A stretch of 64,000 bases of DNA from Acidimicrobiales bacterium (lineage in GTDB: Bacteria > Actinomycetota > Acidimicrobiia > Acidimicrobiales > SHLQ01), in contig JAHDEJ010000024.1 in assembly GCA_020628865.1 (NCBI GenBank), positions 1 through 64,000 of the forward strand, in the 5' to 3' direction. This document shows positions 10,569 to 64,000 of this stretch, piece by piece (positions within the stretch are counted from its first letter, which is position 1; every line of letters starts with the position of its first letter). The translations under genes and the position numbers were made by a program. The notes beneath the pieces were generated by a model, which was given only the letters and a program-made list of their open reading frames with translations, searched no databases and was not told where the DNA came from.

Positions 10569-10571
10569 TTG

Positions 10572-11178: not shown

Positions 11179-11181
11179 TTG

Positions 11182-11434: not shown

Positions 11435-11551
11435 GTTTGCATCGCACGCGTCATGGAGAGGGGCCAAGAGGACTATCGGGAAGTTCCGGATCAGCGCCGA
11501 ATGGTTAGAGATGAACGGCGATCAACCGGTCGCAGAAGGACGGGGAATGAG

Positions 11552-40785: not shown

Positions 40786-41004
40786 GTGAGCAACGTGCCC
40801 GAGACGCTTCAAGGCCGCGGTCGGGACGGTTCGACGGTGCCGAAGGCGAAGCGGGCTGGCGATGAGGCGTGGTGTTCGGGGTCGCATTCGGAGCCTCGGT
40901 CGGCTTCGGCGTATTCGAGTCGTGCGGTCTGTCGAGCGTGTGGCGACGATGTGTTGATCAACCGCAGCGGGCTTCTTCGCAAGCACCGTCGCTGGCGCTG
41001 GTGA
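40786..41004 (+). CDS. Small zinc-ribbon-like protein of mobile-element type
   Basis: A 72-residue product from a GTG start. Its second half, WCSGSHSEPRSASAYSSRAV then CRACGDDVLINRSGLLRKHRR, has the spacing C-x-G-S ... C-x2-C-G ... G-x-L-x-x-H-R seen in many small actinophage and integrative-element proteins. Two cysteine pairs plus histidines suggest a zinc ribbon. It lies between the lipoprotein gene and the SSB remnant and ends just before a strong hairpin. Small size makes the call uncertain. Confidence 0.45.
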   Translation: MSNVPETLQGRGRDGSTVPKAKRAGDEAWCSGSHSEPRSASAYSSRAVCRACGDDVLINRSGLLRKHRRWRW

Positions 41005-41013
41005 ACGCACCTA

Positions 41014-41034
41014 GGGCCCGGAGGTTCCGGGCCC
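41014..41034. terminator. Convergent hairpin terminator
   Basis: GGGCCCGGA, loop GGT, TCCGGGCCC: a perfect 9-bp stem between the end of the small zinc-ribbon gene (forward) and the end of the SSB remnant (reverse). It has no clear T-tract on either strand. Confidence 0.45.
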
Positions 41035-41050
41035 GCCCGCCGGCTGTGGG

Positions 41051-41252
41051 TTAGAAGGCTTCCTCGCCGGGCTTCGGGTCGTCTGTGGCCTTGGTCTTGG
41101 GGCCGTCGAGGTAGCTGACCTGGTTGGCGATGACTTCGTAGCGTTCCCGGTTGTTGCCGTCGTCGTCGGTCCAGGTGTTGGGGTTGAGGCGTTCGGCGAT
41201 GGCGACGAGTCGGCCTTTGGAGAGCCACTTGGCGTCGTTCTCGGCGGGTCTC
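41051..41252 (-). pseudogene. Single-stranded DNA-binding protein remnant (C-terminal part)
   Basis: In a frame different from the IS481 reading frame, the reverse strand encodes AKWLSKGRLVAIAERLNPN, TWTDDDGNNRERYEVIANQV and SYLDGPKTKATDDPKPGEEAF before TAA. This resembles the second half of the SSB OB fold (KGxxVxVxGRLxxxxWxDxxGxxRxxxEVxAxxVxFL) and a short acidic tail. The first half is absent, because the sequence switches into the IS481 remnant near 41252. It is a deletion relic of a plasmid- or phage-type ssb gene. Confidence 0.6.
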
Positions 41253-41254
41253 GA

Positions 41255-41927
41255 TCTGGTTCCGTCCGCCCGGGTAGCCGGCGAACCGGACCGTGTAAAC
41301 GAGGCCGTTGTCGGTGAGCACGGACGCCGGGAACCCGTGTGTTTCAGCGGTTTGGTCGAAGGTGTCCCGAACGATGTCGCCGGTGACCCGTCGGTGGCAG
41401 CTGACGTGGAGGGCGTATCGGGAGTGATCGTCGAGCCACGTGATGGTTTCGGTGTCGGTGCCGTCAGCGAGCCAGATGTGGGTGAAGTCTGATTGCCAGG
41501 TTTCGTTCGGCAACGCGGCTTCGAACCGGATATAGCTCGACTTTGGCCGTTTCTTCGGTGCTGGTTCGACGAGCCCGGCAGCGACGAGCCGGCGTCGGAT
41601 CGTTGAGACGGAAACGTCGAGCTCGTGCTCGTTGTGGAGGTGCCATTGGATCGTGTGAGGGCCGGCGTCGAGCCCGTCTGCGGTGAGTTGTTCGCGCAGG
41701 TTCACGATCGTGGCGTTCACGACATCTGCGAGCCGGTTCGGTGACGTGTGCGGCCGCCGTGACCGTGGTTCGAACGCCGCGTCACCCTCTGCGCGGTGCC
41801 GGGCCATCGGCTTGGAGACCCAGCCGCGCGATACCCCGAACCGCCTCGCTGCCTCGGATTGTGAGATCCCCTCCACCGTGACCGCCGTGATGATCGCTCG
41901 AGCCTTCGACATCACCCACGATGCCAA
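41255..41927 (-). pseudogene. IS481-family transposase, truncated
   Basis: Starts MASWVMSKARAIITAVTVEG with the IS481 helix-turn-helix (SQSEAARRFGVSRGWVSK, then a second HTH), and enters the rve integrase core: TWQSDFTHIWLADG with the first catalytic Asp, TWLDDHSRYALHVS, and SVLTDNGLVYTVRFAGYPGGRN with the second Asp. The family's next segment with the catalytic Glu is missing: after GGRNQIE the frame runs out of phase through the SSB remnant. Inactive. Its right end carries two copies of an IS-end-like repeat. Confidence 0.85.
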
Positions 41928-42118: not shown

Positions 42119-42784
42119 ATGACCCGTCGGGTGCTGGTAACCGATGCCGAAGACTTCGTCGGCCCAGCCGCGGTGCGGCGCTTCCACGACGGAGGCGACA
42201 CAGTCGTCACTCATACAGTTCCACTCGACACCCGAGCTGACGTCGCCGCCCTTGTTGCCGACGAGGGACCCTTCGATGTTGTGATCGCCAACCTCGACGC
42301 CCCGATCACGGTTGCGCCGATCACCGACCACAACGACGACATCACCAGCAGGCTCTTCGGGCGTCTCGTCAACCCGCTGTTCTGGCTCCTCGAAGAGTGC
42401 CTCCCGTCGATGTACCGGGCTGGGTGGGGCGCGATCGTCGTCCCGACCTCGGCAACGGCGATCCGATCCTCATCGCACCCGATCGCTGGCTACGAAGTGG
42501 CCCGAGCGGCGCAGATGCAACTCGTCCGCAGCGCCGGCAGAGAAGCCGCTGCACACGGAGTGCGGGTCAACGGCATCGCCCCCAACTTCATCGAGAACCC
42601 TTCCTACTTTCCGCCAGAGACCGTCGGTGAGCCCGAGTTCCAAGAGTCGTTGCGTCGTGAGGTGCCAGCACAGCGCCTGGGGCGAGGAGAGGAAGCCGCC
42701 GCGGCTATGTGGTGGCTGGCATCGGACCATGCCTCGTACATCTTCGGCGCGATCATCCCTACCGACGGCGGCTGGACCCTCTAG
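42119..42784 (+). CDS. Halohydrin-dehalogenase-like short-chain dehydrogenase family protein
   Basis: A 221-residue SDR-fold protein that lacks the NAD(P)-binding TGxxxGxG motif. In its place is T8-DAED-F13-V-G15, matching the T-x4-[F/Y]-x-G signature described for halohydrin dehalogenases. The catalytic triad is present as Ser111 (VVPTSAT), Tyr125 and Arg129 (YEVAR), where ordinary SDRs have Y-x3-K; the Ser-Tyr gap is 13 rather than 12 residues. The enzymes interconvert vicinal haloalcohols and epoxides. SDR-like NGIAPNFI and the C-terminal GAIIPTDGGWTL are kept. It is convergent with the IclR gene; their stop codons share CTAG. Substrate unknown. Confidence 0.65.
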   Translation: MTRRVLVTDAEDFVGPAAVRRFHDGGDTVVTHTVPLDTRADVAALVADEGPFDVVIANLDAPITVAPITDHNDDITSRLFGRLVNPLFWLLEECLPSMYRAGWGAIVVPTSATAIRSSSHPIAGYEVARAAQMQLVRSAGREAAAHGVRVNGIAPNFIENPSYFPPETVGEPEFQESLRREVPAQRLGRGEEAAAAMWWLASDHASYIFGAIIPTDGGWTL

Positions 42785-43605
42785 CGACCGCCGCGCAGCG
42801 GTGCGCCTGAGGTTTGGTGGTTCAGGTGTGGGGCCTGCGTGCCCGCAGCGGAAGCGAGGTCGTTCGAGATCTGAGTCGCGAGGCGCCGGACGGTTCGGGC
42901 GGCGTCGATCAGCGAGTCCTCGAATCGGAACTTCGGAGCAGTGATGCCGAGCGCAGCCACTGCCACGCCCGAAGGGCCACGGATCGGCGCGGAGCAGCCG
43001 ACGACACCCTCCTCGAACTCGTCGATGACGATCGCGTAGCCGGCCTCCCGGGCCCGGGCGACTTCTGCCGCGAACTTTGCAGGAGTCGTGCATCGAAGCC
43101 CGGGAGCTTCGGCGATGCGTCCGGGGGTGAGCCACGTGGCGGCGAGTTCGGGCGGTTCCGTCGCAAGAATCGCCCGGCAGGTCGAGCTGCTGGCGGCTGG
43201 GCCGGCGGCCCCGACCCGGGCATACAACGCCAGCGCATGCCGTGACGCCTCCGAGGCGATGATGATCGTCTCGTCTGCTCGAAGCACGACGACCTCGGCT
43301 GTCTCGCCGTAGGCCGAGGCGAGCTGCCGGAGGAAGGGGCGGCTCGCCGCGGCGACATGTGCTTCGAGGCTCTGCGCCGCGATGGTGTGCATGCGCCACC
43401 CGATCACGTAGCCCCGCGAGGAGCCGTCGCGATCCAGAATGCCCGCATCGGCCAAGGTCGAAAGGGCCCGTGAGACCTGACTCTTGTCTCGTCCGGTCTG
43501 GGCGGCCAACTCGCTGACCGAACTCGGCGAGCCGTTGGCGGCGACGATGTGGTCGAGCAGATCGATGTCTCGGCTCAGTCCCGCTGCGTTCTTTCGCGGT
43601 GCCAT
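42781..43605 (-). CDS. IclR-family transcriptional regulator
   Basis: A 274-residue regulator. The N-terminal winged helix (DIDLLDHIVAANGSPSSVSEL, AAQTGRDKSQVSRALSTLAD, GILDRDGSSRGY) is followed by an effector-binding domain (about 90-255), which includes AEVVVLRADETIIIASEASRH and GYAIVIDEFEEGVVGCSAPIRG. Start set at ATG 43605; an open frame extends further upstream but would overlap the divergent operon's leader. Its divergent placement, 93 bases from the methyltransferase start with palindromes between, makes it the likely regulator of the demethylation/threonine operon, with an onium compound or a metabolite as effector. Confidence 0.88.
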   Translation of the reverse strand: MAPRKNAAGLSRDIDLLDHIVAANGSPSSVSELAAQTGRDKSQVSRALSTLADAGILDRDGSSRGYVIGWRMHTIAAQSLEAHVAAASRPFLRQLASAYGETAEVVVLRADETIIIASEASRHALALYARVGAAGPAASSSTCRAILATEPPELAATWLTPGRIAEAPGLRCTTPAKFAAEVARAREAGYAIVIDEFEEGVVGCSAPIRGPSGVAVAALGITAPKFRFEDSLIDAARTVRRLATQISNDLASAAGTQAPHLNHQTSGAPLRGGR

Positions 43606-43698: not shown

Positions 43699-45239
43699 AT
43701 GTCCGAACGAACGAGGCGTCGCCAGGGTCGGCGGGGAGCCGCGCAGGGACCGCCAGCGATCGAGCAGCCGCCGTTCCGCCTTCATCGGCGGTCTGTCGAG
43801 CCGACGCGTGTCGTCTCCGACGACGAGCTCGAAGCGGTGCACGAGTCATCGCTGGCGATCCTGCGCGATGTCGGCATCGACGTGCTCCTGCCCGACGCTC
43901 GAGCGAGGCTCGAGGCGGCGGGTTGCACGGTGTCGATCTCTGACGACCGCGTGCGATTCGATCCTGAGATGGTCATGGACTACGTCGGCTCTGCGCCGGC
44001 CGAGTTCACGCTGCATGCGCGCAACCCGGCTCACACCGTGCAGATCGGCGGCGACAATGTGGTGTTCTCCGCTGTCGCCAGCCCGCCCAATGTGAGCGAC
44101 GCTGCCGGTGGGCGTCGTACGGGCAACATGGAGGACTTTCAGAACCTCGTGCGCCTGAGTCAGCACCTCAACGCGGTCCAGGTCCATGCGGGCTACCCGG
44201 TCGAGCCTGCGGACGTCCACGCCTCGGTTCGCCATCTCCACGCCATCGCGGACATTGCAAACTCAGCGACAAGGCCGTGAACGCCTACAGCCTCGGAGCC
44301 GACCGCAACCGCGACGCCCTCGAGATTCTTCGGATTGCGCACCAACTCTCGGACGACGAGATCGACGTCAACACGATTGTGTACTCGGTCATCAACACAT
44401 CGTCGCCGCTGCGCTTGGACGAGCCGATGTGCACCGGCATCATCGAATACGCCGCCCGGAACCAGGCGGTCGTCGTCACCCCATTTACGCTCGCAGGCGC
44501 CATGGCACCGGTCACCATCGCCGGGGCCGTTGCGCAGCAGAACGCGGAAGCGCTCGCCGGCATTTGCCTCGCCCAGGTTGTGCGACGAGGGGCGCCGGTC
44601 TTGTATGGCGGATTCACGTCGAACGTCGACATGAAGTCCGGTTCGCCCGCGTTCGGCACGCCAGAGTTCATGCAGGCCGCAATGCTCGGCGGGCAACTCG
44701 CCCGGCGGTACCGACTTCCATACCGCTCGTCGAACGTCAATGCGGCCAACGCAGTCGACGCCCAAGCCGGCTACGAATCGGTCTTCTCGCTGTGGGGAGC
44801 GATCATGGGCGGCGCCAACCTCGTATTCCATGGAGCTGGATGGTTGGAAGGCGGCCTCCGCGCGTCGTACGAGAAGATGGTCCTCGACGCCGACCTGATC
44901 AACATGGTCGCCACCTGGCTTCAACCGCTCGTCGTCGACGACGCAACGCTCGCCCTGGAAGCGATCGCCGAGGTCGGTCCCGGTGGACACTTCTTCGGGG
45001 TGCAGCACACGCAGGACCGATACCGCAACGCCTTCTACTCGCCGATGGTGTCGGACTGGCGCAACTTCGAATCGTGGGCCGAGGCCGGCTCGCCCACTGC
45101 CGACACCAAGACGGCAGCTCTGGCAGCCCAACTGCTCGCCGAATACCAGCAACCTCCCATGGACCCCGCCGTGCTCGAAGAGATCGATGCATTCGTCGAT
45201 CGCCGAGTCGCCCAGGGCGGCGTCACGACCGACTTCTAG
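43699..45239 (+). CDS. MttB-family (trimethylamine/betaine) methyltransferase, one-base frameshift
   Basis: Member of the MttB superfamily, whose members move a methyl group from a quaternary or tertiary amine to a corrinoid protein. The first part (43699-44280) ends HLHAIADIANSATRP; the second (in the next frame, to 45239) continues AVNAYSLGADRNRDALEILR. Adding one A to the AAA at 44259-44261 joins them as ADIAKLSDKAVNAYSLG, giving about 513 residues, the normal size. The second part has GGFTSNVDMKSGSPAFGTPE and GAGWLEGGL. No in-frame TAG is seen, so this is a non-pyrrolysine member. The shift is a mutation or a sequence error. No corrinoid-protein gene is adjacent. First gene of the operon. 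Confidence 0.85.
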
Positions 45240-45266
45240 TCCGCACGAAAGAACGAGGAAGAAGTA

Positions 45267-47795
45267 ATGAAGACCAACGCACGAGTCGTCGTCGTCGGCG
45301 GAGGCGTCGTCGGTGCCAGCGTGCTGTACCACCTGACGAAGAACGGCTGGACCGACGTCGTCCTCCTCGAACGAACCGAGCTGACGGCCGGTTCAACCTG
45401 GCATTCGGCCGGTGGCATGCACACTCTCAACGGCGACCCGAACGTCGCCAAACTCCAGCAGTACACGATCGAGCTGTACAAGGAGATCGAGGCCCTATCG
45501 GGTCGCGACTGTGGAATTCATTTGACCGGCGGACTCATGCTGGCCGACAGCGAGGAGCGCATGGACTGGCTGCGCATGGCTCACGCTCGCGGTCGGTACC
45601 TCGGAATGGACACCGAGCTCATCAGCGTCGCGGAGGCGAAGAAGCTTATGCCGCTGCTCGAGGAGGAGTACTTCGTGGGAGCGATGTACGACGCCCACGA
45701 AGGTCACGTCGATCCCTCCGGCGTGACCCACGCGTACGCCCAGTGCGCCCGAGACAACGGCGCTTCCATTCACCGCAACAGTTGGGTCCGCTCGCTGGCT
45801 CGAACCGCCGAAGGCTGGGACGTCGAGGTCATCGAGACATCCAGTGGCGAGGTAAAGGGCACCATCAGCTGCGAACACGTCGTCAACGCCGGTGGCCTCT
45901 GGGCCCGCGAGGTCGGCCGCATGGCCGGCGTCGAACTGCCGGTGCTCGCCATGGAGCACATGTACCTGCTGACCGAGGACATTCCCGCCATCGCCGACTA
46001 CAACGCCGAACACGGCGAGGTCCTGCACTGCATCGACTTCGGCGGCGAGATCTACATGCGTCAAGAAGGCGGCGGGCTGCTGCTCGGCACGTACGAGCAA
46101 GGCGGCAAACCATGGTCGGTCGAGGAGACCCCATGGGACTTCGGCATGCGGCTCCTCACCCCCGACCTCGACCGGATCGCAGAGTCGCTCGACGTCGGCT
46201 TTCGTCACTTCCCCGTGTTCGAGGACGCCGGTATCAAACAGGTCATCAACGGCCCGTTCACCTTCGCCCCCGACGGCAACCCGCTGCTCGGTCCGATCCG
46301 CGGCCTCCCCGGCTTCTGGAGCGCATGCGCCGTCATGGCTGGGCTCAGCCAGGGCGGCGGTGTCGGTCTGTCGCTCGCCAACTGGATGACCGACGGCGAT
46401 CCAGGCTTCGACATCTGGGGGATGGATGTCGCACGGTACGGCGACTACGCCACGCTCGAATACACGAGCGAGAAGGTGCAGGAGAACTACAGCCGACGGT
46501 TCCGTATCCAGTTCCCTAACGAGGTGCTCCCGGCCGCACGCCCTTTTGAAACGTCGCCGATCTACGACCGGCTCGTCGCTGAAAACGCGGTCTGGGGCGA
46601 CGCGTACGGACTCGAAAGCGCACTGTGGTTCCAGAAGCCGGGACTCGACCCGGTCGAGGAGGTCACCTTCGGCCGCTCCAACGCCTGGGACTCCGTTCGC
46701 GAAGAATCCCTCGCTGTTCGCAGCGGCGTCGGGGTCATGGAGACGACCGGCTTCGCCAAGTTCGTCTTCAGCGGCGCGGATGCGCGGAGCTATCTCGATT
46801 CGATCATCACCAACCGACTGCCGGCTCCGGGACGAATGGTCCTGGCGCCGATGGTCAACCACAACGGCAAGCTCATCGGCGATCTCACCGTCGCCTGTCT
46901 TGGGCCGACGCCCGGCGTTGCCGAAGGTCCTCGCACCACACCGACCGGTGGCGCAACGCAGAACACGGGCGACCAGGAACGCTTCGTCGTGTTCGGTTCG
47001 GGCGTGGCAACCCGCTTCTACGAGCGTTGGTTCGATCAGACGATCCCGACCGGCGCCAACGTCGCATACAGCACGTTGGGCTGGGACCTCTGTGGTCTCG
47101 CCATCGCAGGACCACGGTCAAGAACACTGCTCGAGCGGCTCACCACGACCGACGTGTCCGGCGAGGCGTTCCGGTTCATGGACTTCCGACAGCTCGACCT
47201 GGGGCCGATCCCGGTGTGGTGCGGGCGGGTCTCGTTCTCAGGCGACCTGGGATATGAGTTCTGGATGTCGTCGAGTCGACAACGGGCGACGCTCGACCTG
47301 CTGCAACGAGAAGGTGAAGACTTGGGCCTGCGATTGTTCGGCCTGCACGCGCTCGATTCGCTTCGCCTCGACAAGGGCTTTGGCACGTGGGGCCGCGAAT
47401 ATCGGCCGATCTACGACCCTTACGAGGCCGGCCTCGGCCGTTTCGTGAAGCTCGACAAAGGCGACTTCATCGGCCGCGAGGCGTTGGTGGCAGCCCAAAC
47501 AACGGGGCCGGAGCGTCGACTGCTCACATGGACTGTCGACACCGACCCGGGGCGCGGCGGCGCCGACGTCATTGGCGACGAGCCGATCTGGCACGACGGC
47601 GAGGTCGTCGGGTGGGTCACCTCGGGTGGCTACTCCCATCACATGGATACCTCGGTGGCCATGGGTTACGTGCCTGCCGAACTCGCCGGTTCGGACGGAG
47701 CGTTTGAGATCGAGATCCTCGGGGTCCGCAGACAGGCGGCGCTCGTCGACGGTTGTCTCTGGGATTCCGCGGGCGAACGAATGAGAAAGGCCTGA
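45267..47795 (+). CDS. FAD-dependent dimethylglycine/sarcosine dehydrogenase-like protein with GcvT domain
   Basis: An 842-residue fusion. Residues 1-400 form a DAO-type FAD oxidoreductase (VVVVGGGVVGASVLYHL, then the H-containing AGSTWHSAGGMHTLN as in covalent-FAD DMGDH/SarDH), and NPLLGPIRGLPGFWSACAVM closes the FAD domain. Residues about 440-840 form a GcvT/aminomethyltransferase domain that can pass the oxidised methyl group to tetrahydrofolate. Such enzymes demethylate N-methylated amino acids (dimethylglycine, sarcosine). Substrate here could be an N-methylated homoserine, given the genes that follow. GAGGAAG is the ribosome-binding site. 28 bases after the MttB gene and 2 bases before the next gene. 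Confidence 0.9.
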   Translation: MKTNARVVVVGGGVVGASVLYHLTKNGWTDVVLLERTELTAGSTWHSAGGMHTLNGDPNVAKLQQYTIELYKEIEALSGRDCGIHLTGGLMLADSEERMDWLRMAHARGRYLGMDTELISVAEAKKLMPLLEEEYFVGAMYDAHEGHVDPSGVTHAYAQCARDNGASIHRNSWVRSLARTAEGWDVEVIETSSGEVKGTISCEHVVNAGGLWAREVGRMAGVELPVLAMEHMYLLTEDIPAIADYNAEHGEVLHCIDFGGEIYMRQEGGGLLLGTYEQGGKPWSVEETPWDFGMRLLTPDLDRIAESLDVGFRHFPVFEDAGIKQVINGPFTFAPDGNPLLGPIRGLPGFWSACAVMAGLSQGGGVGLSLANWMTDGDPGFDIWGMDVARYGDYATLEYTSEKVQENYSRRFRIQFPNEVLPAARPFETSPIYDRLVAENAVWGDAYGLESALWFQKPGLDPVEEVTFGRSNAWDSVREESLAVRSGVGVMETTGFAKFVFSGADARSYLDSIITNRLPAPGRMVLAPMVNHNGKLIGDLTVACLGPTPGVAEGPRTTPTGGATQNTGDQERFVVFGSGVATRFYERWFDQTIPTGANVAYSTLGWDLCGLAIAGPRSRTLLERLTTTDVSGEAFRFMDFRQLDLGPIPVWCGRVSFSGDLGYEFWMSSSRQRATLDLLQREGEDLGLRLFGLHALDSLRLDKGFGTWGREYRPIYDPYEAGLGRFVKLDKGDFIGREALVAAQTTGPERRLLTWTVDTDPGRGGADVIGDEPIWHDGEVVGWVTSGGYSHHMDTSVAMGYVPAELAGSDGAFEIEILGVRRQAALVDGCLWDSAGERMRKA

Positions 47796-47797
47796 TC

Positions 47798-49120
47798 ATG
47801 GCTAACGAGAATCAGTACGACGCCATCATCATCGGTGCGGGCGTGATCGGTGCGGCTATCGGCTACGAACTGTCGAAGGCAGGCCGTCGAACGCTCAACA
47901 TCGACAAGCTGCCCGCAGCCGGGTATGGGTCGACGAGCAATACGTGCGCCATCATTCGCTTCAGCTACAGCACCTACGACGGTGTCGCGATGGCGTGGGA
48001 GGGACAGCACTACTGGGTCAACTGGCGGGAGTACCTCGGCGGCGACGTCGACGAACGCGGTTTGATCGACTTCGTCCAGTGCGGCACCGCCCTGCTGAAG
48101 AAGTCCGGAGGGCACTCGCACCACGAGAAGGTCGTGCCGCTGCTCACCGAGCTCGACATCCCGTTCGAGGACTGGGACCTCCCTGCGTTGCTCGATCGGC
48201 TGCCTGCGCTCAACGGATCGGTGTTCGGCCCGCCGAAGCGTCCCGACGATGACGGGTTCTGGGCCGAGCCGACCGAACAACTTCTCGGCGCCGTGTGGAC
48301 GCCCGACGCCGGGTACATCTCCGATCCGCAACTGTCGACCCACAACCTCCAGCGGGCGTGTGAGAACGTCGGCGGCGAGTTCGTGTTCAACACCGAAGTG
48401 ACGGCCATCAACCAGGCCGCTGGTCGGGTCACCGGAGTCACCTTGTCGACCGGCGAGACGATCTCGGCGCCCGTGGTCGTGAATGTTGCCGGCCCCCACA
48501 GCTTCGTCGTCAATCGTATGGCTGGGCTCGAAGGCACCATGAACATCGGGACCAAGGCACTTCGCCACGAGGTGCACCACGTCGCCTCGCCCGACGGCGT
48601 CAACTACGGCGCGACCGGCTGCCACGTGCAGGACGGTGACACCGGCATCTATTTCCGGCCCGAGTCCGGCGACAACATCCTCATCGGTTCCGAAGACCCC
48701 GACTGCGACCCGCAGGAATGGATCGAGGACCCCGACGACTACGACACCGAGGTCTCACAGGAACAATGGGAAGCCCAGGTGCTCCGGCTCGCACGGCGAA
48801 TGCCCGACCTCGGTGTGCCCAACACCAAGCGGGGCGTCGTCGACCTCTACGACGTCGCCGACGATTGGATCCCGATTTACGACAAGACCGATCTCGGCGG
48901 CTTCTACGTCGCGATCGGCACGTCGGGCAACCAGTACAAGAACGCCGGAGTCGCGGCGGCCGCGATGGCTGAGCTCATCGACGCGGTCGAGGGCGGTCAT
49001 GACCACGACGCAGAGCCCGTCGTCCACGTGGGGCGCTACACCGGACTCGAGATCGACATGTCGAGCTTCGGTCGGAACCGTGAGATCAACCCGAACAGCA
49101 GCTTCTCGGTGAACGGTTAG
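47798..49120 (+). CDS. FAD-dependent oxidoreductase (monomeric sarcosine oxidase/SoxB-like)
   Basis: A 440-residue DAO-family flavoprotein: dinucleotide-binding IIIGAGVIGAAIGYELSKAG, then YGSTSNTCAIIRFSYST and VVVNVAGPHSFVVNRMAG, with a C-terminal FYVAIGTSGNQYKNAGVAA segment. Relatives oxidise secondary or tertiary N-methyl amino acids, releasing formaldehyde and H2O2. With the preceding fusion protein it would provide two successive N-demethylations. The ATG at 47798 is two bases after the upstream stop; an upstream in-frame GTG-type start would overlap the previous gene. No GcvT domain here. Confidence 0.88.
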   Translation: MANENQYDAIIIGAGVIGAAIGYELSKAGRRTLNIDKLPAAGYGSTSNTCAIIRFSYSTYDGVAMAWEGQHYWVNWREYLGGDVDERGLIDFVQCGTALLKKSGGHSHHEKVVPLLTELDIPFEDWDLPALLDRLPALNGSVFGPPKRPDDDGFWAEPTEQLLGAVWTPDAGYISDPQLSTHNLQRACENVGGEFVFNTEVTAINQAAGRVTGVTLSTGETISAPVVVNVAGPHSFVVNRMAGLEGTMNIGTKALRHEVHHVASPDGVNYGATGCHVQDGDTGIYFRPESGDNILIGSEDPDCDPQEWIEDPDDYDTEVSQEQWEAQVLRLARRMPDLGVPNTKRGVVDLYDVADDWIPIYDKTDLGGFYVAIGTSGNQYKNAGVAAAAMAELIDAVEGGHDHDAEPVVHVGRYTGLEIDMSSFGRNREINPNSSFSVNG

Positions 49121-49152
49121 TTGCGGGTACTGGCGATGGCGAGGAAGTAGCG

Positions 49153-49989
49153 ATGACCATCATCAGGGTCCCAGGATCGTCGGCGAATCTCGGCCCCGGT
49201 TTCGATGTGCTCGGGATGGCCGTCGACCGGTACCTCGACTTTCGACTGGTCGACGATGACGTCGATGCGAGCGACTCCAATTGGCGTCTCTACGACGCTG
49301 ACGAAACCCATCTCGCCGTGCGAACGTTTCGCGAAGCCGGGGGACAAGGCCGCGTCTGTATCGCGTCGGCGATCCCGCCCGCCCGCGGTCTCGGCTTCTC
49401 TGGCGCTGCGAGAGCAGCGGGGCTGTTCGCGGCAGCGATCCAGCAGGGTTCGTCGATCGAAGAGTCGCGAGACGAGGTCTTTGCGAGTGCCTCCGAGCTC
49501 GAAGGTCACAGCGACAACGTCGCCGCTTCGATCTACGGCGGCGTCACGGTCGCGGCCGGCGGAGTGGTCGAACGGTTTCCTCTCGGACAGGACCTTGCCG
49601 TCGTTTTGTGGATCCCCGCGAATGGTTCCGGAACCGACGCCTCACGTCGGTCGCTTCCCGAGCACTACCGACGCGACGATGTCGTCTTCAACCTGGGGCG
49701 GGTCGCGCTATTCGCCGCCGCCCTTGCGAGCGGGTCGCTTGATCGGCTGGAGCTCGCCACGCAGGACCGTCTCCATCAAGAGCAGCGGTTGTCGGATCTG
49801 CCAGAGTCGGCCATGGCGTTGCGCTGTGCCCAAGACGCTGGGGCGTACTGTGCCTGGTTGTCGGGTAGCGGCCCGACCGTCGCGGCGTTCTGCGACCCGA
49901 CCAATGCACGCGACATCGCCGCACGGCTTCCAGACGAGGCCGAGGTCGCGATCGCCGAAATCGACGACCGGGGCGCACGATGTCTGTGA
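49153..49989 (+). CDS. thrB: Homoserine kinase (GHMP family)
   Basis: Phosphorylates homoserine to O-phosphohomoserine. The 278-residue product has the GHMP opening VPGSSANLGPGFDVLGMAVD, an ATP-binding motif PPARGLGFSGAARAAG (a variant of PxxxGLGSSAA, with Phe-Ser-Gly in place of Ser-Ser-Ala), EGHSDNVAASIYGG, and the late glycine-rich AYCAWLSGSGPTVAAF. The variant motif hints at a specialised paralogue. Embedded in an operon with N-demethylating enzymes and overlapping thrC by 10 bases, so a catabolic use of homoserine is plausible; plain threonine biosynthesis is the alternative. Confidence 0.85.
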   Translation: MTIIRVPGSSANLGPGFDVLGMAVDRYLDFRLVDDDVDASDSNWRLYDADETHLAVRTFREAGGQGRVCIASAIPPARGLGFSGAARAAGLFAAAIQQGSSIEESRDEVFASASELEGHSDNVAASIYGGVTVAAGGVVERFPLGQDLAVVLWIPANGSGTDASRRSLPEHYRRDDVVFNLGRVALFAAALASGSLDRLELATQDRLHQEQRLSDLPESAMALRCAQDAGAYCAWLSGSGPTVAAFCDPTNARDIAARLPDEAEVAIAEIDDRGARCL

Positions 49990-51413
49990 ACAACAGGCGG
50001 GAGAGCGACACCGTGGTGTACAGGAGCACCCGCGGCGGTGCAGCTGGAGTGGGCTTTGGCGACGTGCTGCTCGACGGTTTGGCGCCAGACGGTGGGCTCT
50101 ATGTTCCGGATCGGATTCCTGGGCCGGTCCCGTCGGTGGCCGACCGGCCGTACGTCGACGCAGCCCCGGATCTCATGTGGCCCTTCGTCGCGGGAGCGAT
50201 CGATCGGGAGACCTTCGGCAAGCTCGTCAGGGAGGCGTACTCAACGTTTACGCACCCAGAGGTGATCCCGCTCGTCGCGCTGGGCTCTGGGCAGTGGATT
50301 GCGGAGCTCTTCCACGGACCCACGCTTGCGTTCAAAGATCTCGCGATGCAGCTGCTCGGAAAGCTGTTCGAACATCAGCTCACCGCAACCGGCCGACACG
50401 TCACGATCATCGGTGCGACCTCGGGCGACACCGGGGCCGCCGCGATCGAAGCGTTCCGAGGTCGCTCGAACATCGAGGTCGTGATCCTTCACCCCAACGA
50501 ACGGGTGTCGGAGGTGCAACGGCGCCAGATGACCACCGTGACCGACGACAACGTCGTCAACCTCGCGATCGACGGGACCTTCGACGACTGTCAGGATCTC
50601 GTCAAAGCGGCGCTCGCAGACAGCGAGCTCACCGGAGTCTTCGATCTGACGGTCGTGAACTCGATCAACTGGGGTCGCATCGTCGCCCAAACCGCGTACG
50701 TCCATTGGATCGCTCAGCGGTGTTCCAGCGACGGGCCGATCGACCTGGTGGTGCCGACCGGCAACTTCGGCAACATCTACGCGGCTCGCGTCGCCCAGCG
50801 GATGGGAGCGCCGATCGGTCGTCTCGTCGTGGCCACAAATCGCAATGCGGTCCTGGCCAGTTTCGTCAACGACGCGTCGATGACCATTGGGCCGGTCGAG
50901 CCATCCCTGTCCCCGAGCATGGACATCCAAGTGCCCAGCAATCTCGAACGACTGCTGTCCGAGCTCTTCGACGATGACGGTACGGCGGTCGCGCGAGCGG
51001 TCCACACCCTCAGAACCACCGGCTCGCTCGTGCTCGACGACGCGACCGCTACCCGCGTGGCTCAGGGATGGTCGGCAGCGACGATCGACGACGACGAAAC
51101 GGTCGAGATCATGACCGAGACGTACGCCGCGACCGGGCGTCTCGTCGATCCCCACACCGCCGTGGGGATCGGAGCAGCCCGGGCGGCATCGACCGAGCGA
51201 ACGCAGGTCGTCCTGGCCACCGCACATCCCGCCAAGTTCCCCGACACCGTCGAGGAGGCGACCGGGCGCTGGCCCGACCTTCCCCCTCACCTCGACAGTC
51301 TTTACGACCTCGACGAGCAGTACTCGATCGTGCCGAACGAACTCGCTGCAGTTGCGCGAGCAATGACGGACGCGCTCGGGGTCGGCTCGCCATCACATGT
51401 GAGGAGAAGCTGA
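49980..51413 (+). CDS. thrC: Threonine synthase
   Basis: PLP enzyme converting O-phosphohomoserine to threonine. The 477-residue product is of the longer (yeast/E. coli-like) class: VVYRSTRGGAAGVGFGDVLLDG at the start, PLP lysine in HGPTLAFKDLAMQLLG, the substrate/PLP motifs IGATSGDTGAAAIEAFRGR and LTVVNSINWGRIVAQTAYVH (PSINWGR-like), and VPTGNFGNIYAAR. It overlaps thrB by 10 bases and its TGA overlaps the next gene's ATG. Placing threonine synthesis next to threonine degradation is unusual unless homoserine is an intermediate. Confidence 0.92.
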   Translation: MSVNNRRESDTVVYRSTRGGAAGVGFGDVLLDGLAPDGGLYVPDRIPGPVPSVADRPYVDAAPDLMWPFVAGAIDRETFGKLVREAYSTFTHPEVIPLVALGSGQWIAELFHGPTLAFKDLAMQLLGKLFEHQLTATGRHVTIIGATSGDTGAAAIEAFRGRSNIEVVILHPNERVSEVQRRQMTTVTDDNVVNLAIDGTFDDCQDLVKAALADSELTGVFDLTVVNSINWGRIVAQTAYVHWIAQRCSSDGPIDLVVPTGNFGNIYAARVAQRMGAPIGRLVVATNRNAVLASFVNDASMTIGPVEPSLSPSMDIQVPSNLERLLSELFDDDGTAVARAVHTLRTTGSLVLDDATATRVAQGWSAATIDDDETVEIMTETYAATGRLVDPHTAVGIGAARAASTERTQVVLATAHPAKFPDTVEEATGRWPDLPPHLDSLYDLDEQYSIVPNELAAVARAMTDALGVGSPSHVRRS

Positions 51414-52666
51414 TGCACCGAACCGACTTCTACGAGCGCCTGGAGGGCACGCTCGAGGGCATTCGAGACGACGGCCTCTGGAAACACGAGCACGAACTCA
51501 CTTCGCCTCAATCGGGGGAGATCTCGCTGGCTGACGCCGGGACCCATATCAACCTCTGCGCCAACAACTACCTGGGCCTGGCGGATGATCCGAGTGTCAT
51601 CGCCGCCGCGAAGGATGCGATGGATCGGCTTGGGCATGGCATGGCATCGGTGCGCTTCATCTGCGGGACAACGGAGGACCACCGTCTTCTCGAGAACGAC
51701 ATCGCGGACTATCTCGGCACAGACGCTGCTATCACCTTCGCGGCGTGCTTCGATGCCAACGCCGCCGTGTTCGAACCGTTGCTCGGCGCCGACGACGCCA
51801 TCGTCAGCGACTCCCTGAACCACGCGTCGATCATCGATGGCGTCAGACTGTCGAAGGCGAGGAGGTACCGCTTCGCCACACGGGACATGACCGACCTTCG
51901 CACGCAGCTCGAAGTGGCGCGGGCCGAGGGCGACGGGGCCATCCTGATCGTGACCGACGGGGTGTTCTCGATGGACGGCTACCTTGCCGACCTTGGAGCG
52001 ATCTGCGAACTCGCGGACGAATTCGACGCCCTGGTCATGGTGGACGACTGCCATGCCACGGGGCTGATCGGTCCGGGCGGACGTGGAACGCCGACCCACT
52101 TTGACGTCGTCGATCGGGTGGACATCGTGACGAGCACGCTGGGCAAGGCGCTCGGTGGAGCGATGGGTGGCTTCGTCGCTGCTCGTCAGCCAATCGTCGA
52201 CCTGCTGCGGCAACGTGGCCGCCCGTACCTGTTCTCGAACGCGCTGTCTCCAGCTCATGTCGGGGGAGCGCGTGAAGCGATTCGTATTGCTTCTGCCAGC
52301 GACGACCGTCGCGACCGCCTGATGCGCCACGCCGAACGATTCCGCTCGGCCATGACTGCGGCGGGCTTCGAGCTCACGGGAGCGGGCCACCCGATCGTTC
52401 CGGTCATGTTCGGCGACGCGACGGTCGCCGTCTCGATGGCGGAACGGCTGCTGGAGTTCGGTGTCTACGTGACTCCCTTCTCGTTTCCGGTCGTTCCGCA
52501 CGGGCAGGCCAGGATCCGGACACAGATGAGCGCTGCGCTCACCGACGAGCACCTTGATACGGCGATCTCCGCCTTCATGCAGGCCGCCGACGACCTCGGC
52601 ATCGACCGGGCCAACGCGGCCTCGTCGGCAGAGCCGACAAAGAGCGGAAATGGAGGCGCGCGGTGA
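51413..52666 (+). CDS. kbl: Glycine C-acetyltransferase (2-amino-3-ketobutyrate CoA ligase)
   Basis: PLP enzyme of the alpha-oxoamine synthase family; splits 2-amino-3-oxobutyrate with CoA into glycine and acetyl-CoA. The 417-residue product has NLCANNYLGLADDPSVIAAA, GTTEDHRLLENDIADYLG, DSLNHASIIDGVRLSKA, FSMDGYLADL, VDDCHATGLIGPGGRG and the PLP lysine in TSTLGKALGGAMGGF, all matching KBL rather than BioF or HemA. It starts at 51413 by TGATG overlap with thrC and its stop overlaps the tdh GTG. KBL plus TDH next to it give the two-step threonine degradation route. Confidence 0.92.
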   Translation: MHRTDFYERLEGTLEGIRDDGLWKHEHELTSPQSGEISLADAGTHINLCANNYLGLADDPSVIAAAKDAMDRLGHGMASVRFICGTTEDHRLLENDIADYLGTDAAITFAACFDANAAVFEPLLGADDAIVSDSLNHASIIDGVRLSKARRYRFATRDMTDLRTQLEVARAEGDGAILIVTDGVFSMDGYLADLGAICELADEFDALVMVDDCHATGLIGPGGRGTPTHFDVVDRVDIVTSTLGKALGGAMGGFVAARQPIVDLLRQRGRPYLFSNALSPAHVGGAREAIRIASASDDRRDRLMRHAERFRSAMTAAGFELTGAGHPIVPVMFGDATVAVSMAERLLEFGVYVTPFSFPVVPHGQARIRTQMSAALTDEHLDTAISAFMQAADDLGIDRANAASSAEPTKSGNGGAR

Positions 52667-53733
52667 GAGCACTGATCAAGCCGGGCCCGGGAACGGGCCT
52701 CGAACTCATCGAACGACCGGAGCCCGACGTTGGGTCGACCGACGTGCTGATTGCTGTGAAGCGCGCCGCCATTTGCGGGACCGATCTTCACATCTTCGAC
52801 TGGGACGACTGGGCGGCGAGCGAGGTGGTTACACCGGTGACGGTCGGCCACGAGTTCTTCGGCATCGTCGAAGCGGTCGGCGACCAGGTCACGAACATCG
52901 AACCCGGCGAGCGCGTCGCTGGCGAAGGCCATGTCACCTGCGGGACGTGCCGCAACTGTCGCGCCGGAAACCAGCACCTCTGTCGGAACACGGTCGGCGT
53001 CGGTATCCATCGTGACGGCGGGTTCGCCGACCTCGTGGCCATTCCGGCGTCCAACGTCTACCGAGTACCCGATGGCATCGACGACAACGCGGCCGCGATT
53101 CTCGATCCGCTCGGCAACGCGGTGCACACCGCACTCTCGTTCGACCTCGTCGGCGAGGACGTGCTGATCACCGGGGCAGGACCGATTGGTCAGATGGCCG
53201 CCGGGGTTGCTCGCCTCGCCGGAGCCCGGCACGTTGTCGTCACCGACACCGTCGAAGATCGACGCGACAACGCGCTGCGGATGGGGGCGTCACTCGCAGT
53301 CGAGCCAGGGGTCGAATCGCTCCAGTCGGCCATGAGTGAACTCGGCATGTGCGAAGGGTTCGACGTCGGCCTCGAAATGTCGGGCCACGGTGGGGCGCTC
53401 GACGACTTGATCACGGTGATGAACCACGGTGGCCACATCGCCCTCCTCGGTCTCTACGGTCAACGGCCCGACATCGACATGAACGCGCTGATCTTCAAGG
53501 GGTTGACGGTCAAGGGCATCTACGGCCGTGAGATGTTCGAGACCTGGTACAAGGCGACCGCGCTGCTGGCCGCCGGCCTCGACGTGTCGCCGGTGATCTC
53601 GCACGTACTTCCGCTCGGGCGGTTCGAAGAGGCGTTCGACCTGTTGCGCACCGGAAGGGCGAGCAAAGTTCTGCTCGACATCGAGGCCGAGGGAGATACC
53701 GCATCCGACACAGCTGCAGGGGAGCCAGGATGA
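52663..53733 (+). CDS. tdh: L-threonine 3-dehydrogenase (zinc-dependent MDR family)
   Basis: Oxidises threonine to 2-amino-3-oxobutyrate with NAD. The 356-residue product has the catalytic zinc ligands in CGTDLHIFDWDDWA and GHEFFGIV, structural zinc cysteines in CGTCRNCRAGNQHLC, the Rossmann motif ITGAGPIGQMAAGVARLAGA and the TDH-typical VGIHRDGGFADLVAIPASNVY, NPLGNAVHTAL as DPLGNAVHTAL and GIYGREMFETWYKATAL. It starts with GTG in a GTGA overlap with kbl and ends in an ATGA overlap with the M24 gene. Product of TDH is the substrate of the adjacent KBL. Confidence 0.93.
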   Translation: MRALIKPGPGTGLELIERPEPDVGSTDVLIAVKRAAICGTDLHIFDWDDWAASEVVTPVTVGHEFFGIVEAVGDQVTNIEPGERVAGEGHVTCGTCRNCRAGNQHLCRNTVGVGIHRDGGFADLVAIPASNVYRVPDGIDDNAAAILDPLGNAVHTALSFDLVGEDVLITGAGPIGQMAAGVARLAGARHVVVTDTVEDRRDNALRMGASLAVEPGVESLQSAMSELGMCEGFDVGLEMSGHGGALDDLITVMNHGGHIALLGLYGQRPDIDMNALIFKGLTVKGIYGREMFETWYKATALLAAGLDVSPVISHVLPLGRFEEAFDLLRTGRASKVLLDIEAEGDTASDTAAGEPG

Positions 53734-55028
53734 CCGGAAAGATCGTCAACAGCATGAAGGCGTTGGCCCCAGAGGTGGCTGCGGCCGGCTCGGAGCTTCA
53801 CCACCTGATTCTGGGCCCCGGGGCAGACCTCGAGGCCGAGTGGGTGGCGGCCGGACTGGAACTGCCCGACCTCGTCGGCATGCGGGAGTACCGGCTCGCC
53901 CGGCTGCGGCGGCAACTGGACCAGATGGGCTACGACGGGGCGATCCTGTGGGATCCGATGAACATCCGCTACGCGACCGACACCACCAACATGCAGGTCT
54001 GGGCGGGGCACTTCCCGTCGCGCTACTGCTGGGTCGGCGCCGATGGGTCGTTGATCCTCTGGGACTTCTTCGAATGCGAGTTCCTGAGTGGACACAATCC
54101 CAATGTGTCCGAGGTCCGGAGCGCGGACGCACCGACATACTTCCTCGCCGGTCCTCGCTACGAGGAGGCGTCGAGGCGATGGGCGAACGAGATGCTCGAC
54201 GTGATCCGGCAACATGCGGGGGAGAGGCCACGAATCGCGGTCGACAATCTCAACTGGCCCGAAGCCGACAAGCTGAGAGCCGGCGGGGTGACGCTCGGCA
54301 GCGGCCAGGAGCTCATGGAGCTCGCCCGCTCGATCAAAGGGCCCGACGAGATCAAGGCCATGCGCTGCTCGGTGCACGCCTGCGAGACGACGATGGCCGA
54401 GATGCGGGCCGAGCTCCGCCCGGGCATGAGCGAACGCGAGCTGTGGGCGATGCTCCACGCCGGCAACATCCGCCGCGGCGGGGAGTGGATCGAAACCCAG
54501 ATCCTGTCGTCGGGACCGCGCACGAACCCGTGGATGCAGGAAGTCTCCAGTCGGATCATCGAGGACGGCGATCTCGTGGCGTACGACACCGATCTGGTCG
54601 GCGCCTACGGGATGATGTGCGACATCAGCCGTACCTGGCTCGCAGGCGACGGGAAGCCGTCGGCCCAACAGCAGAATACGTACGATCTCGCACGCCATCA
54701 GATCGAACACAACCTCGAGCTGCTGACGCCAGGGCGCACGTTCCACGAGTTGACGCACCAGTCGTGGATGCCGCCCGTGGAGGACTACCGCCACTACTGC
54801 GTCAACTATCACGGGGTCGGACAGTGCGATGAGTTTCCAGAGATCACCTTCCCGCACATGTGGGGCAAGATCGGCTGGGACGGCGTGCTCGAACCTGGCA
54901 TGGTGCTCACGGTCGAGGCCTATGTCGGACCGCGGGCCGGAGGCGAAGGGGTCAAGCTCGAGGAGCAGGTCCTCGTTACGAAGCGAGGTCCGGATCGTCT
55001 GTCGAACGCCGTGATCGACCTGGTGTGA
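53730..55028 (+). CDS. M24-family metallo-protein, DddP (DMSP lyase)-like
   Basis: A 432-residue 'pita-bread' protein of peptidase family M24. Candidate metal ligands are D286, D288, D298 (YDTDLVGAYGMMCDIS), H361 (NYHGVGQCDE), E396 (TVEAYVG) and E411 (KLEEQVLV). The steps 2, 10, 63, 35 and 15 nearly match those I recall for DddP (D295, D297, D307, H371, E406, E421: 2, 10, 64, 35, 15), an M24 enzyme that cleaves dimethylsulfoniopropionate to DMS and acrylate; ordinary aminopeptidases P have D-x-G rather than D-x-D. It is the last gene of the operon, so its true substrate may be another onium acid, such as a glycerol-linked trimethylhomoserine. Creatinase-like or peptidase activity is the alternative. 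Confidence 0.7.
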   Translation: MTGKIVNSMKALAPEVAAAGSELHHLILGPGADLEAEWVAAGLELPDLVGMREYRLARLRRQLDQMGYDGAILWDPMNIRYATDTTNMQVWAGHFPSRYCWVGADGSLILWDFFECEFLSGHNPNVSEVRSADAPTYFLAGPRYEEASRRWANEMLDVIRQHAGERPRIAVDNLNWPEADKLRAGGVTLGSGQELMELARSIKGPDEIKAMRCSVHACETTMAEMRAELRPGMSERELWAMLHAGNIRRGGEWIETQILSSGPRTNPWMQEVSSRIIEDGDLVAYDTDLVGAYGMMCDISRTWLAGDGKPSAQQQNTYDLARHQIEHNLELLTPGRTFHELTHQSWMPPVEDYRHYCVNYHGVGQCDEFPEITFPHMWGKIGWDGVLEPGMVLTVEAYVGPRAGGEGVKLEEQVLVTKRGPDRLSNAVIDLV

Positions 55029-56834: not shown

Positions 56835-57458
56835 ATGCGGCGGCAGGCTGGGTTCGTTGCGGTTCTCGATGCTGTTGAGTGCTACCTGCGGGTCCGTCAC
56901 GGCGAGGACATCGGAGCTGTCCGGTTGCTGAATCGCCTGGGTGATGCTCGACCGGCGTCATCGGGTCCACCGATTGCGCCGATCCATGACCGATCCCTGG
57001 CCACGGCCCTTGCTCGCTTGTGCGGCTCCGGCGACGACTTGCTCGCAGAGGTGGGGCGCGCGATCCGAACCTGCGGACCGTTGTTCGAGTGGCGGGTCGA
57101 TGACGGGCTCTACTATCCGCCAGGTGCGCCAATCAGCGGTACTTACCGTGACGGCAACATGCACACGATCTTGGCCGAAGGCGACGACTTCGCGATGGGC
57201 CTGTTCTTGCTCGAACCCCAAGTGGACTATCTCGATCACCGGCACGCTGCGCCGGAGTTCTACTTGAACCTGACCGGCCCAACCGACTGGCGCTTCGACT
57301 TCGGGGCCTGGCTACAGCTGCCGGCCGGGTCAGTGTTGTGGAACGACCCTGGCCGAGTTCACGCCACCAGGACGGGTGCTGAACCATGGCTCTCGCTGTG
57401 GGCGTGGCTGTCTGATGTCGACCAACCCTGCGAGGTCCTGGAGTCCCGGCCAGACTAA
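56835..57458 (+). CDS. DMSP-lyase-like cupin protein (DddL/DddQ family)
   Basis: A 207-residue protein with an N-terminal helical part and a C-terminal cupin. YLDHRHAAPEFYLNLTGPTDW then LPAGSVLWNDPGRVHATRTGAEPWLSLWAWL (parts) match the DMSP-lyase cupin pattern H-x3-E-x-Y ... H: candidate metal ligands are H137, E141, Y143 and H176, spaced as in DddQ (H125, E129, Y131, H163, with one extra residue before the last His). Known relatives split dimethylsulfoniopropionate into DMS and acrylate. It lies 1.8 kb from a DddP-like M24 gene, outside the island repeat. ATG 56835 has GAGGGG six bases upstream. Activity towards DMSP is inference. Confidence 0.72.
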   Translation: MRRQAGFVAVLDAVECYLRVRHGEDIGAVRLLNRLGDARPASSGPPIAPIHDRSLATALARLCGSGDDLLAEVGRAIRTCGPLFEWRVDDGLYYPPGAPISGTYRDGNMHTILAEGDDFAMGLFLLEPQVDYLDHRHAAPEFYLNLTGPTDWRFDFGAWLQLPAGSVLWNDPGRVHATRTGAEPWLSLWAWLSDVDQPCEVLESRPD

Positions 57459-57501: not shown

Positions 57502-58104
57502 TCAGGCCTCCGCCCGGATGAACGACATCACCTGCGAAGAGAGTCCATCGTCGACGGTGAGGTTCACTCCGATGGCTTGGTCAACGGTCGTCACGGTGTC
57601 GTCGCTCACGACGAGGGCGAGGTCGGCGAAGAACTGGCGCACGCCGATCACCACGTCTGCGCGACCCTCGATCGCGGCGGTGACACTCTCGGCGAAGGAG
57701 GTGCACCGAACCAGCGTCGCCGACGGCATGTGGCGTTCGAGCCACAGGGTGTAGGCCCCGCCGTCAAGGCACGCGATCCGTCCGGTCGCTGGGTCGAAAA
57801 CGTCGAGATCGGCCGTGGCGGATGCAGCGAAGCAGACCTCGAGCCGGGTCCACGGCTCGGTGAACTCCATCACTTCAGCTCGCGCCGGATCGGCCGTGAT
57901 GAAGCAGATGTCCCACTCGTCGCTGTGGGCGGCGGCGACGATCTCGGAGGGCAGCGTGTACTCGACCCACACCGGGTTGCGGTCGACAGCAGCCGCGACG
58001 CGACGAGCCATCTCCGGCGCCGGGCCGGTTGGGGAGCCGTCGGGGTCGTGGCCGGTGACGAGTTCGGTGTTGGCGAGGTTGAGCGCGATGCGCAGCGATT
58101 CCAT
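57502..58104 (-). CDS. Periplasmic-binding-protein-like domain protein without signal peptide
   Basis: A 200-residue protein with the family 3 solute-binding fold: RIALNLANTELVTGHDPDGSPTGPAPEMARRVA, here split, EWDICFITADPARAEVMEFTEPW and RADVVIGVRQFFADLAL. Such proteins usually begin with a signal peptide or lipobox; here the start MESLRIALNLAN leads directly into the first strand, so it is probably cytoplasmic, either a truncated binding protein or a cytoplasmic enzyme or sensor using the PBP fold. It is the last gene of the reverse-strand operon, 15 bases after the aldehyde dehydrogenase. Confidence 0.7.
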   Translation of the reverse strand: MESLRIALNLANTELVTGHDPDGSPTGPAPEMARRVAAAVDRNPVWVEYTLPSEIVAAAHSDEWDICFITADPARAEVMEFTEPWTRLEVCFAASATADLDVFDPATGRIACLDGGAYTLWLERHMPSATLVRCTSFAESVTAAIEGRADVVIGVRQFFADLALVVSDDTVTTVDQAIGVNLTVDDGLSSQVMSFIRAEA

Positions 58105-58119
58105 GTGCGTGACGAGCGT

Positions 58120-59592: not shown

Positions 59593-59604
59593 GCTGGTCC
59601 TGTC

Positions 59605-60639: not shown

Positions 60640-60669
60640 AGAACGTGGCCCTTCACTTGCTTGCACCCT

Positions 60670-63554: not shown

Positions 63555-64000
63555 CGGCGGCGGCCCCCTTCTTGTCGGTCACGAAATCGACGAGTGCCGC
63601 GTGGATCGAGTCGTCGAGTGGCGGCGGCTCGTAGTCGGCCAGCATCTGCTTCCACTTCGCGTTGGCCCGTTCGGCGACTGTGAGCGACCCCTCTTCGGTC
63701 CACTGCTCGAATGACGCGGTGTCGGCGAGACCGGCATCGATGTTGGCAGTGCGCATGTTGGCGTAGGTGTGGGCCGCGCCCAAGAAGGTGGTTCCGCCGG
63801 CCTCCGCCACTTCGCGGTAGGCGTCGGCGGCGAACGCGTTGTCGTCGAAGGCGATGCCTTGCACGAGCCGTCCCATCGCCTCGCATCGTTGCGCATCGAC
63901 CACGAACTTCTCGAAACCGATCGTCAACCCGCCTTCGAGCCAACCCGCCGCTTGGAGCACATAGTTGGCGCCAGCCAGCACGGCCGCGGTGCACGCGTCG
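63541..64000 (-). CDS. Second MttB-family methyltransferase (C-terminal part, cut by window edge)
   Basis: About 152 C-terminal residues are in the window; the frame stays open to the edge (DACTAAVLAGANYVLQAAGW), so the gene continues beyond 64000. GANYVLQAAGWLEGGLTIG matches GANLVFHGAGWLEGGLRAS of the first MttB homologue, followed by the same C-terminal layout (ADAYREVAEAGGTTFLGAAHT; DYEPPPLDDSIHAALVDFV). It is the first in-window gene of the reverse operon that includes the aconitase-like, ketopantoate-reductase-like, alcohol- and aldehyde-dehydrogenase genes, so the operon probably starts with demethylation of an onium compound. Function by homology only. Confidence 0.85.
   Translation of the reverse strand, partial: DACTAAVLAGANYVLQAAGWLEGGLTIGFEKFVVDAQRCEAMGRLVQGIAFDDNAFAADAYREVAEAGGTTFLGAAHTYANMRTANIDAGLADTASFEQWTEEGSLTVAERANAKWKQMLADYEPPPLDDSIHAALVDFVTDKKGAAADAWY

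Follow-up and report, generated by a model that had tools for sequence, protein, structure and literature searches.

An operon joining betaine-type demethylases to extra threonine genes in an Acidimicrobiales bacterium: a possible pathway for converting homoserine betaine into glycine and acetyl-CoA

Gene content of the operon

The window analyzed in this work, a stretch of 64,000 nucleotides of contig JAHDEJ010000024.1 from an Acidimicrobiales bacterium (assembly GCA_020628865.1), contains at positions 43699–55028 of the plus strand an operon with the gene order mttB, dmg, dao, thrB, thrC, kbl, tdh and m24, as assigned with Pfam and NCBIfam models. This operon is tentatively read here as encoding all steps that lead from homoserine betaine (N,N,N-trimethylhomoserine) to glycine and acetyl-CoA, in which three demethylations would be followed by the ThrB-ThrC-TDH-KBL sequence. 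The gene calls were not due to chance, since the frames are long and match their families strongly. The first-pass annotation had described eight genes on the same strand with mostly 1- to 10-base overlaps: the content and the strand were as described, but mttB proved to be two frames separated by an apparent one-base frameshift, and overlaps of that size were present from thrB through m24 (thrB/thrC 10, thrC/kbl 1, kbl/tdh 4 and tdh/m24 4 bases), while gaps of 27, 2 and 32 bases preceded dmg, dao and thrB, respectively.

The first gene, encoding a corrinoid methyltransferase of the MttB/MtgB type, opens with a frame at 43699–44280, whose first 193 codons terminate at the TGA at 44280, and its remainder resumes in a different frame at 44277–45239. 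Both halves matched PF06253 (positions 4–177 and 179–499 of 500, respectively), but across two frames. Eleven bases separate conserved codons in the window gene vs. twelve in its relatives from loci L152 and L045; judging from this spacing, the break is a one-base frameshift, originating either from an assembly error or from a true mutation. The GTG that opens the second frame at 44277 shares bases with the TGA closing the first frame (GTGA), as in coupled genes. A deliberately split MttB protein is possible yet unlikely, the break being mid-domain. The score of the window mttB with the trimethylamine enzyme model TIGR02369 was far under the cut-off, and the 3′ part was 71% identical to an intact paralog on contig C112 of the same genome. 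The best PDB matches of the L152 homolog were a "putative trimethylamine methyltransferase" and a glycine betaine methyltransferase.

The product of dmg (45267–47795) is a dimethylglycine-dehydrogenase-like FAD demethylase with folate-binding GcvT domains. Its Pfam domain order, DAO, FAO_M, GCV_T and GCV_T_C, was that of dimethylglycine dehydrogenases, and its best PDB match was the human enzyme DMGDH (E 1.6e-148), spanning residues 2–828 of 842. The following gene, dao (47798–49120), encodes a DAO-family FAD oxidoreductase (PF01266), a candidate third N-demethylase, with weak PDB matches to sarcosine oxidases and glycine oxidases.

An IclR-family regulator gene (42781–43605, minus strand; Pfam IclR_C and HTH_IclR) lies divergently upstream of the operon, and IclR-like genes of one cluster also adjoin mttB in the loci L159, L162, L230 and L167. 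No promoter was found by a consensus scan. Further upstream, an integrase-core (transposase-like) frame was present at 40809–41927 (minus strand), in which the rve match ends at position 80 of 102 and the translation beyond it, read by eye, appears out of frame.

The threonine genes and their origin

The four genes of the threonine cassette, located between dao and m24 inside the operon, were identified with different margins. The homoserine kinase gene thrB (49153–49989) passed the TIGR00191 cut-off narrowly (170.2 vs. 168.25 bits) and did not reach that of the PRK01212 model (116.6 vs. 194), while the threonine synthase gene thrC (49980–51413) was well above the cut-off of TIGR00260 (243.5 vs. 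167.1 bits). When aligned to 4f4f, the latter retained the AFKD motif, whose lysine we take to be the PLP lysine. The kbl product (51413–52666) passed two NCBIfam cut-offs for glycine C-acetyltransferase, NF005394 and TIGR01822 (584.3 vs. 460 and 560.1 vs. 493), and the L-threonine 3-dehydrogenase encoded by tdh (52663–53733) passed one of two (NF003808), with 488.9 vs. 380 in the model that was passed and 428.4 vs. 458.35 in the one that was missed.

The first-pass annotation had proposed to look for separate housekeeping thrB and thrC genes, and both were present in the genome (5.36 Mb in 113 contigs), so that the operon does not hold the only copies. The other thrC, 58% identical to the operon copy, is located on contig C51 directly after a homoserine dehydrogenase gene, with a LysA-type decarboxylase and an arginyl-tRNA synthetase encoded upstream (labels confirmed with Pfam), and the other thrB, 60% identical, is located on contig C74. 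These two we take as the housekeeping genes and the operon copies as extras; the former are on separate contigs, while the related copies stand side by side in the operon. This finding strengthened the argument that homoserine is an intermediate. No second kbl was found among the 30 of 30 candidates scored in the genome (the next match was 26% identical over partial length), nor a second tdh among the 6 of 34 candidates scored, where a single match reached E ≤ 1e-60.

In the thrC tree (21 rows) the window copy fell inside a nine-row clade of its own genus (support 100/100); the length of its end branch was 1.04 vs. 0.17 for the housekeeping copy. In an 18-row thrB tree the window copy was the sister of a group of nine thrB from the genus (97/97), and in a 31-row tree lacking other members of the genus it paired with the housekeeping copy of its own genome (95/99). 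Among the columns conserved to at least 95%, 19 of 169 were changed in the window thrC (0 to 5 in four controls) and 3 of 62 in the window thrB (0 to 2 in four controls). The window thrC thus looks like a fast-evolved copy from its own genus, its place within the genus clade being unsure because of possible long-branch error, and the window thrB appears to be an older copy from that line. A foreign origin, considered from base composition, was dropped: the G+C content of the cassette equals that of the window (0.654 vs. 0.652), and the cassette GC3 (0.74–0.80) is below that of dao and m24 (0.85–0.86) yet near that of dmg (0.81).

The long thrC branch and the changed thrC columns, together with the mttB frameshift and the integrase-core frame upstream with its incomplete rve match, fit a decaying or recently shuffled stretch, in which mttB would be permanently broken and the cassette would have no joint function. 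This explanation is, however, unlikely: the remaining seven genes have uninterrupted frames, the conserved columns of dmg and dao are kept, the overlaps are tight, the G+C content of the cassette does not depart from that of the window, and a single assembly error would equally produce the break in mttB.

Homoserine betaine or glycine betaine as the substrate

No gene for making homoserine was found among the operon genes with Pfam, and homoserine is therefore placed at the entry of the cassette. Since threonine would be both made and broken down by products of one operon, homoserine arriving as an intermediate is the best explanation. On this basis, an old operon for betaine demethylation might have taken up the extra thrB and thrC, both kin of the genus copies, along with the kbl and tdh of the genome; as part of the route reading, this is equally tentative. 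In a step order that we infer, as we do the substrate and the role of dao, MttB would transfer the first methyl group of N,N,N-trimethylhomoserine to a corrinoid protein and further to folate, dmg would pass the second to folate, and dao would remove the third, setting homoserine free. The latter would be phosphorylated by ThrB and converted to threonine by ThrC, after which TDH would oxidize threonine and KBL would split the product into glycine and acetyl-CoA. The homoserine betaine reading gives a job to every gene of the operon except m24. The betaine lipid DGTS, suggested in the first-pass annotation as the origin of the substrate, was dropped as a direct source, as it demands cleavage of an ether bond, for which no enzyme was seen and which nothing at the locus explains. 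S-methylmethionine and acyl-homoserine lactones were likewise considered as origins of the homoserine and dropped, no search aimed at them having been made.

Several lines of evidence weigh against homoserine betaine, whose assignment as the putative substrate rests on the gene arrangement in one genome. A conserved co-occurrence of the demethylase and threonine genes elsewhere, proposed as a check in the first-pass annotation, was not found, and the genome analyzed here was the only one searched that showed the arrangement. Among the 80 dmg loci compared (the best 80 of 582 confirmed candidates in the genome collection; at least 20 kb long in 43 and at least 15 kb in 55, so that some flanks are short), none had a match to thrB, thrC or kbl at E ≤ 1e-10 and at least 60 bits, and the three tdh matches, being 23–38% identical, are presumably other alcohol dehydrogenases. 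Closest to the window is locus L152 (dmg 78%, dao 77% identical), in which mttB-dmg-dao is followed by a TypA gene (label confirmed with Pfam). The operon was also not recovered by a dao search of 296 genomes of the class, and 20 regions around dao relatives had no match to thrB, thrC, kbl or tdh among their called genes. All 316 plasmid records with a dmg match were below 60% identity.

The threonine genes gave the same picture when searched on their own, with at most 4 candidates scored per genome for thrC in the order, 8 for thrB and 6 for tdh in the class, so that a weak second copy could escape. With 229 of 397 genomes of the order matched at E ≤ 1e-80, two thrC genes were present in this genome only; in the family, where 18 of 19 genomes matched, the only other case of two matches (G309) represented part-gene pieces on two contigs. 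For thrB, 12 of the 19 family genomes matched at E ≤ 1e-30, with two matches in this genome only, and more than one match occurred in 6 of the 296 class genomes, including this one; the neighborhoods were inspected with 1.5 kb flanks at 31 class loci, which did not cover every second copy in the other five genomes. A tdh match at E ≤ 1e-60 was present in 82 of the 296 class genomes, and in 30 tdh loci with 1.5 kb flanks kbl adjoined tdh in every case, while thrC was beside tdh in one, the window itself.

The demethylase genes also speak for another substrate. The pair mttB-dmg is a widespread module: of the 80 dmg loci, 73 had a called dmg and 47 an mttB, never without dmg. M24 genes were called in 18 of these loci, Rieske oxygenase genes in 13, soxB in 9, soxA likewise in 9, ProX genes in 8 and dao in 4. 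With seven loci added from the dao search (87 in total), the counts were 78 for dmg, 54 for mttB, 19 for M24, 14 for Rieske, 13 each for soxB and soxA, 8 for ProX and 10 for dao, the last being together with mttB and dmg in 8 of the 87. These numbers are lower bounds, as the open reading frame caller trained on the window missed genes in low-G+C loci (e.g., L085), and they carry no background rate of sox, M24 and ProX genes near any FAD demethylase. Seven of the 80 loci combined mttB and dmg with soxB (L157, L208, L209, L211, L212, L214 and L225), and soxA was called in six of them, the exception being L212 at a contig end. A check of the soxB and soxA calls against NCBIfam models, made for L208 and L157, placed them over the cut-offs in the former and under them in the latter. 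Five other loci had mttB, a Rieske oxygenase, dmg, m24 and a ProX-cluster gene; the Rieske protein checked (L159) had GbcA as the best model, far below the cut-off, and the ProX protein checked (L154) was above its cut-off. The combination of the module with sox genes suggests conversion of glycine betaine to glycine, which favours glycine betaine as its ancestral substrate.

As an alternative, the demethylases would work on glycine betaine via dimethylglycine and sarcosine to glycine, and the cassette would be a separate supply of glycine and acetyl-CoA, with the homoserine link incidental and the regulation shared only since both parts end at glycine. We regard this as a serious though doubtful alternative. 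Apart from the sox and Rieske loci, the enzyme relatives argue for it, namely the human DMGDH as the best PDB match of dmg and the glycine betaine methyltransferase match of the L152 MttB, and kbl and tdh may just be the threonine-degradation genes of the genome, no second copies having been found. Moreover, the columns conserved to 85% were kept in the window proteins in 144 of 149 cases for the 3′ part of MttB, 324 of 330 for dmg and 163 of 169 for dao (sets of 58, 83 and 14 homologs, respectively, the last being small), as they were for MttB and dmg in the sox-locus relatives L208 (188/197 and 320/331) and L157 (178/196 and 316/330). These columns gave no sign of a substrate switch or an altered pocket as far as sequence can tell, the pockets being unmapped. 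Two further points add to the case against homoserine betaine: no transporter was found within the operon, and the mttB frame break adds doubt. The glycine betaine alternative, however, leaves without reason both the extra thrB and thrC inside the operon and the close coupling of its genes.

The last gene of the operon, m24 (53730–55028; PF00557), encodes a DddP-like M24 protein that scored 450.5 bits with the DddP model NF043017, below its cut-off of 600. Its best PDB matches were 4rzy (E 4.9e-107), 4s01, 4s00 and 4b28, the first two of which are presumably DddP entries, and it retains an Asp, which we take to be the catalytic base, where the 4s01 entry has an Asn. Because 14 of the 80 dmg loci combined an M24 gene with mttB and dmg, and none of the 14 had a thrB, thrC or kbl match, m24 seems to belong to the betaine module and not to the threonine cassette. 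A role as DMSP lyase was dropped in view of the score below the cut-off and of this recurrence. A DMSP lyase family protein (PF16867, 62.6 bits vs. a cut-off of 27) is encoded 1.8 kb past m24 at 56835–57458 (plus strand), so that two DMSP-lyase-like families are near each other.

Related genes were present elsewhere in the genome. Paralogs of the three demethylase genes are located on three other contigs: mttB on C112 (about 70% identity), dmg on C78 (69%) and dao on C18 (60%). A cluster on contig C29, detected by tblastn with proteins of locus L169, encodes MtgC-like (82%), MtgD-like (68%) and RamA-like (55%) proteins; of the queries, the pterin protein passed its domain cut-off (347.7 vs. 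259), while the MtgC and RamA/AcsV models were matched under their cut-offs. The predicted cognate corrinoid protein, folate methyltransferase and reductive activase genes are thus present on C29, and their pairing with the operon MttB is putative. A fourth gene of the cluster (46%) is presumably DUF1638. Betaine-type binding proteins are indicated by four OpuAC matches above the cut-off at three places (C44, C62 and C18). In the genome as a whole, PF06253 was found at twelve places, corresponding to eleven genes with one split, in differing gene surroundings. One of them belongs to a second MttB locus (L048) at 57502–63999 of the minus strand, opposite to the operon and continuing to about 65064 of contig C102, which includes mttB (C102:63568–65064) and genes for an aconitase-family protein, a ketopantoate-reductase-like protein, a zinc alcohol dehydrogenase and an aldehyde dehydrogenase (both labels confirmed with Pfam) as well as a small solute-binding-like protein; this locus may act on a different betaine. 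At 10383–11755 (plus strand), three similar short tandem frames of 61, 61 and 67 amino acids, the first a Flp/Fap pilin by Pfam, appear to be repeated pilin genes following what is probably a pilus cluster.

Meaning of the operon and comparison with known systems

The ocean nitrogen fixer Trichodesmium has been described as having homoserine betaine as its major compatible solute (PMC5864184), and the compound was present in reef and seagrass exometabolomes, where microbial uptake was considered possible and was not directly tested (PMC13403184). No pathway for its breakdown was found in the literature searched, most subscription journals being outside the coverage. If the homoserine betaine route is true, the operon supplies named genes for the breakdown of this marine osmolyte and shows that a degradation pathway can arise from extra copies of biosynthesis genes. 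Variation of the substrate within the MttB superfamily is exemplified by MtpB, which acts on proline betaine (PMC8604678).

One of the systems nearest to the operon is the demethylation of glycine betaine by MtgBCD in aerobic marine bacteria, such as Ruegeria pomeroyi (PMC12478193). It shares with the system proposed here an MttB-family protein, the corrinoid protein MtgC, the pterin-binding MtgD and RamA, and the genes for the later demethylations are often nearby in marine bacteria (PMC12478193). In contrast, the window operon contains thrB, thrC, kbl and tdh, and the mtgC- and mtgD-like genes are on another contig. The words "threonine" and "homoserine" do not occur in the main text of PMC12478193.

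The mitochondrial and bacterial dimethylglycine dehydrogenases/oxidases (5l46, 4p9s and 1pj5) resemble dmg over nearly the full length, including the FAD and folate domains, the substrate of dmg being putative. The loci with heterotetrameric sarcosine oxidase have the same mttB-dmg pair as the window, but the window operon lacks sox genes and includes dao and the threonine cassette. Likewise, m24 shares with DddP, a DMSP lyase of the M24 family, the best structure matches and the Asp, although the curated cut-off was not reached.

As for the threonine part, kbl is beside tdh as in the TDH-KBL threonine degradation, but among the 30 loci the window alone has a preceding thrB-thrC. The synthetic serine-threonine and homoserine cycles, in which threonine is formed and subsequently split into glycine and a C2 unit, are similar in principle (PMC8879981): Tdh and Kbl operate in the former, and homoserine kinase, threonine synthase and LtaE in the latter (PMC8879981). 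A natural cycle of this kind for C1 assimilation is an improbable further explanation of the operon. In such a cycle betaine methyl groups and glycine would give serine, then pyruvate and, by housekeeping or aldolase steps, homoserine, from which ThrB-ThrC-TDH-KBL would regenerate glycine with release of acetyl-CoA. The cassette corresponds to that section of the synthetic serine-threonine cycle in which glycine is regenerated, with Tdh and Kbl (PMC8879981), the C1 units would be produced by the demethylation steps of the same operon, and the resemblance of the demethylases to glycine betaine enzymes agrees with it. However, the steps from serine to homoserine are outside the operon, with the homoserine dehydrogenase on C51 and the others not sought, and such cycles have been described as engineered (PMC8879981). 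If this explanation is true, the operon would represent a natural case of a C1 cycle so far described as an engineered one (PMC8879981). The synthetic cycles differ from the window operon in having been engineered in E. coli (PMC8879981) and in including further steps that the operon lacks.

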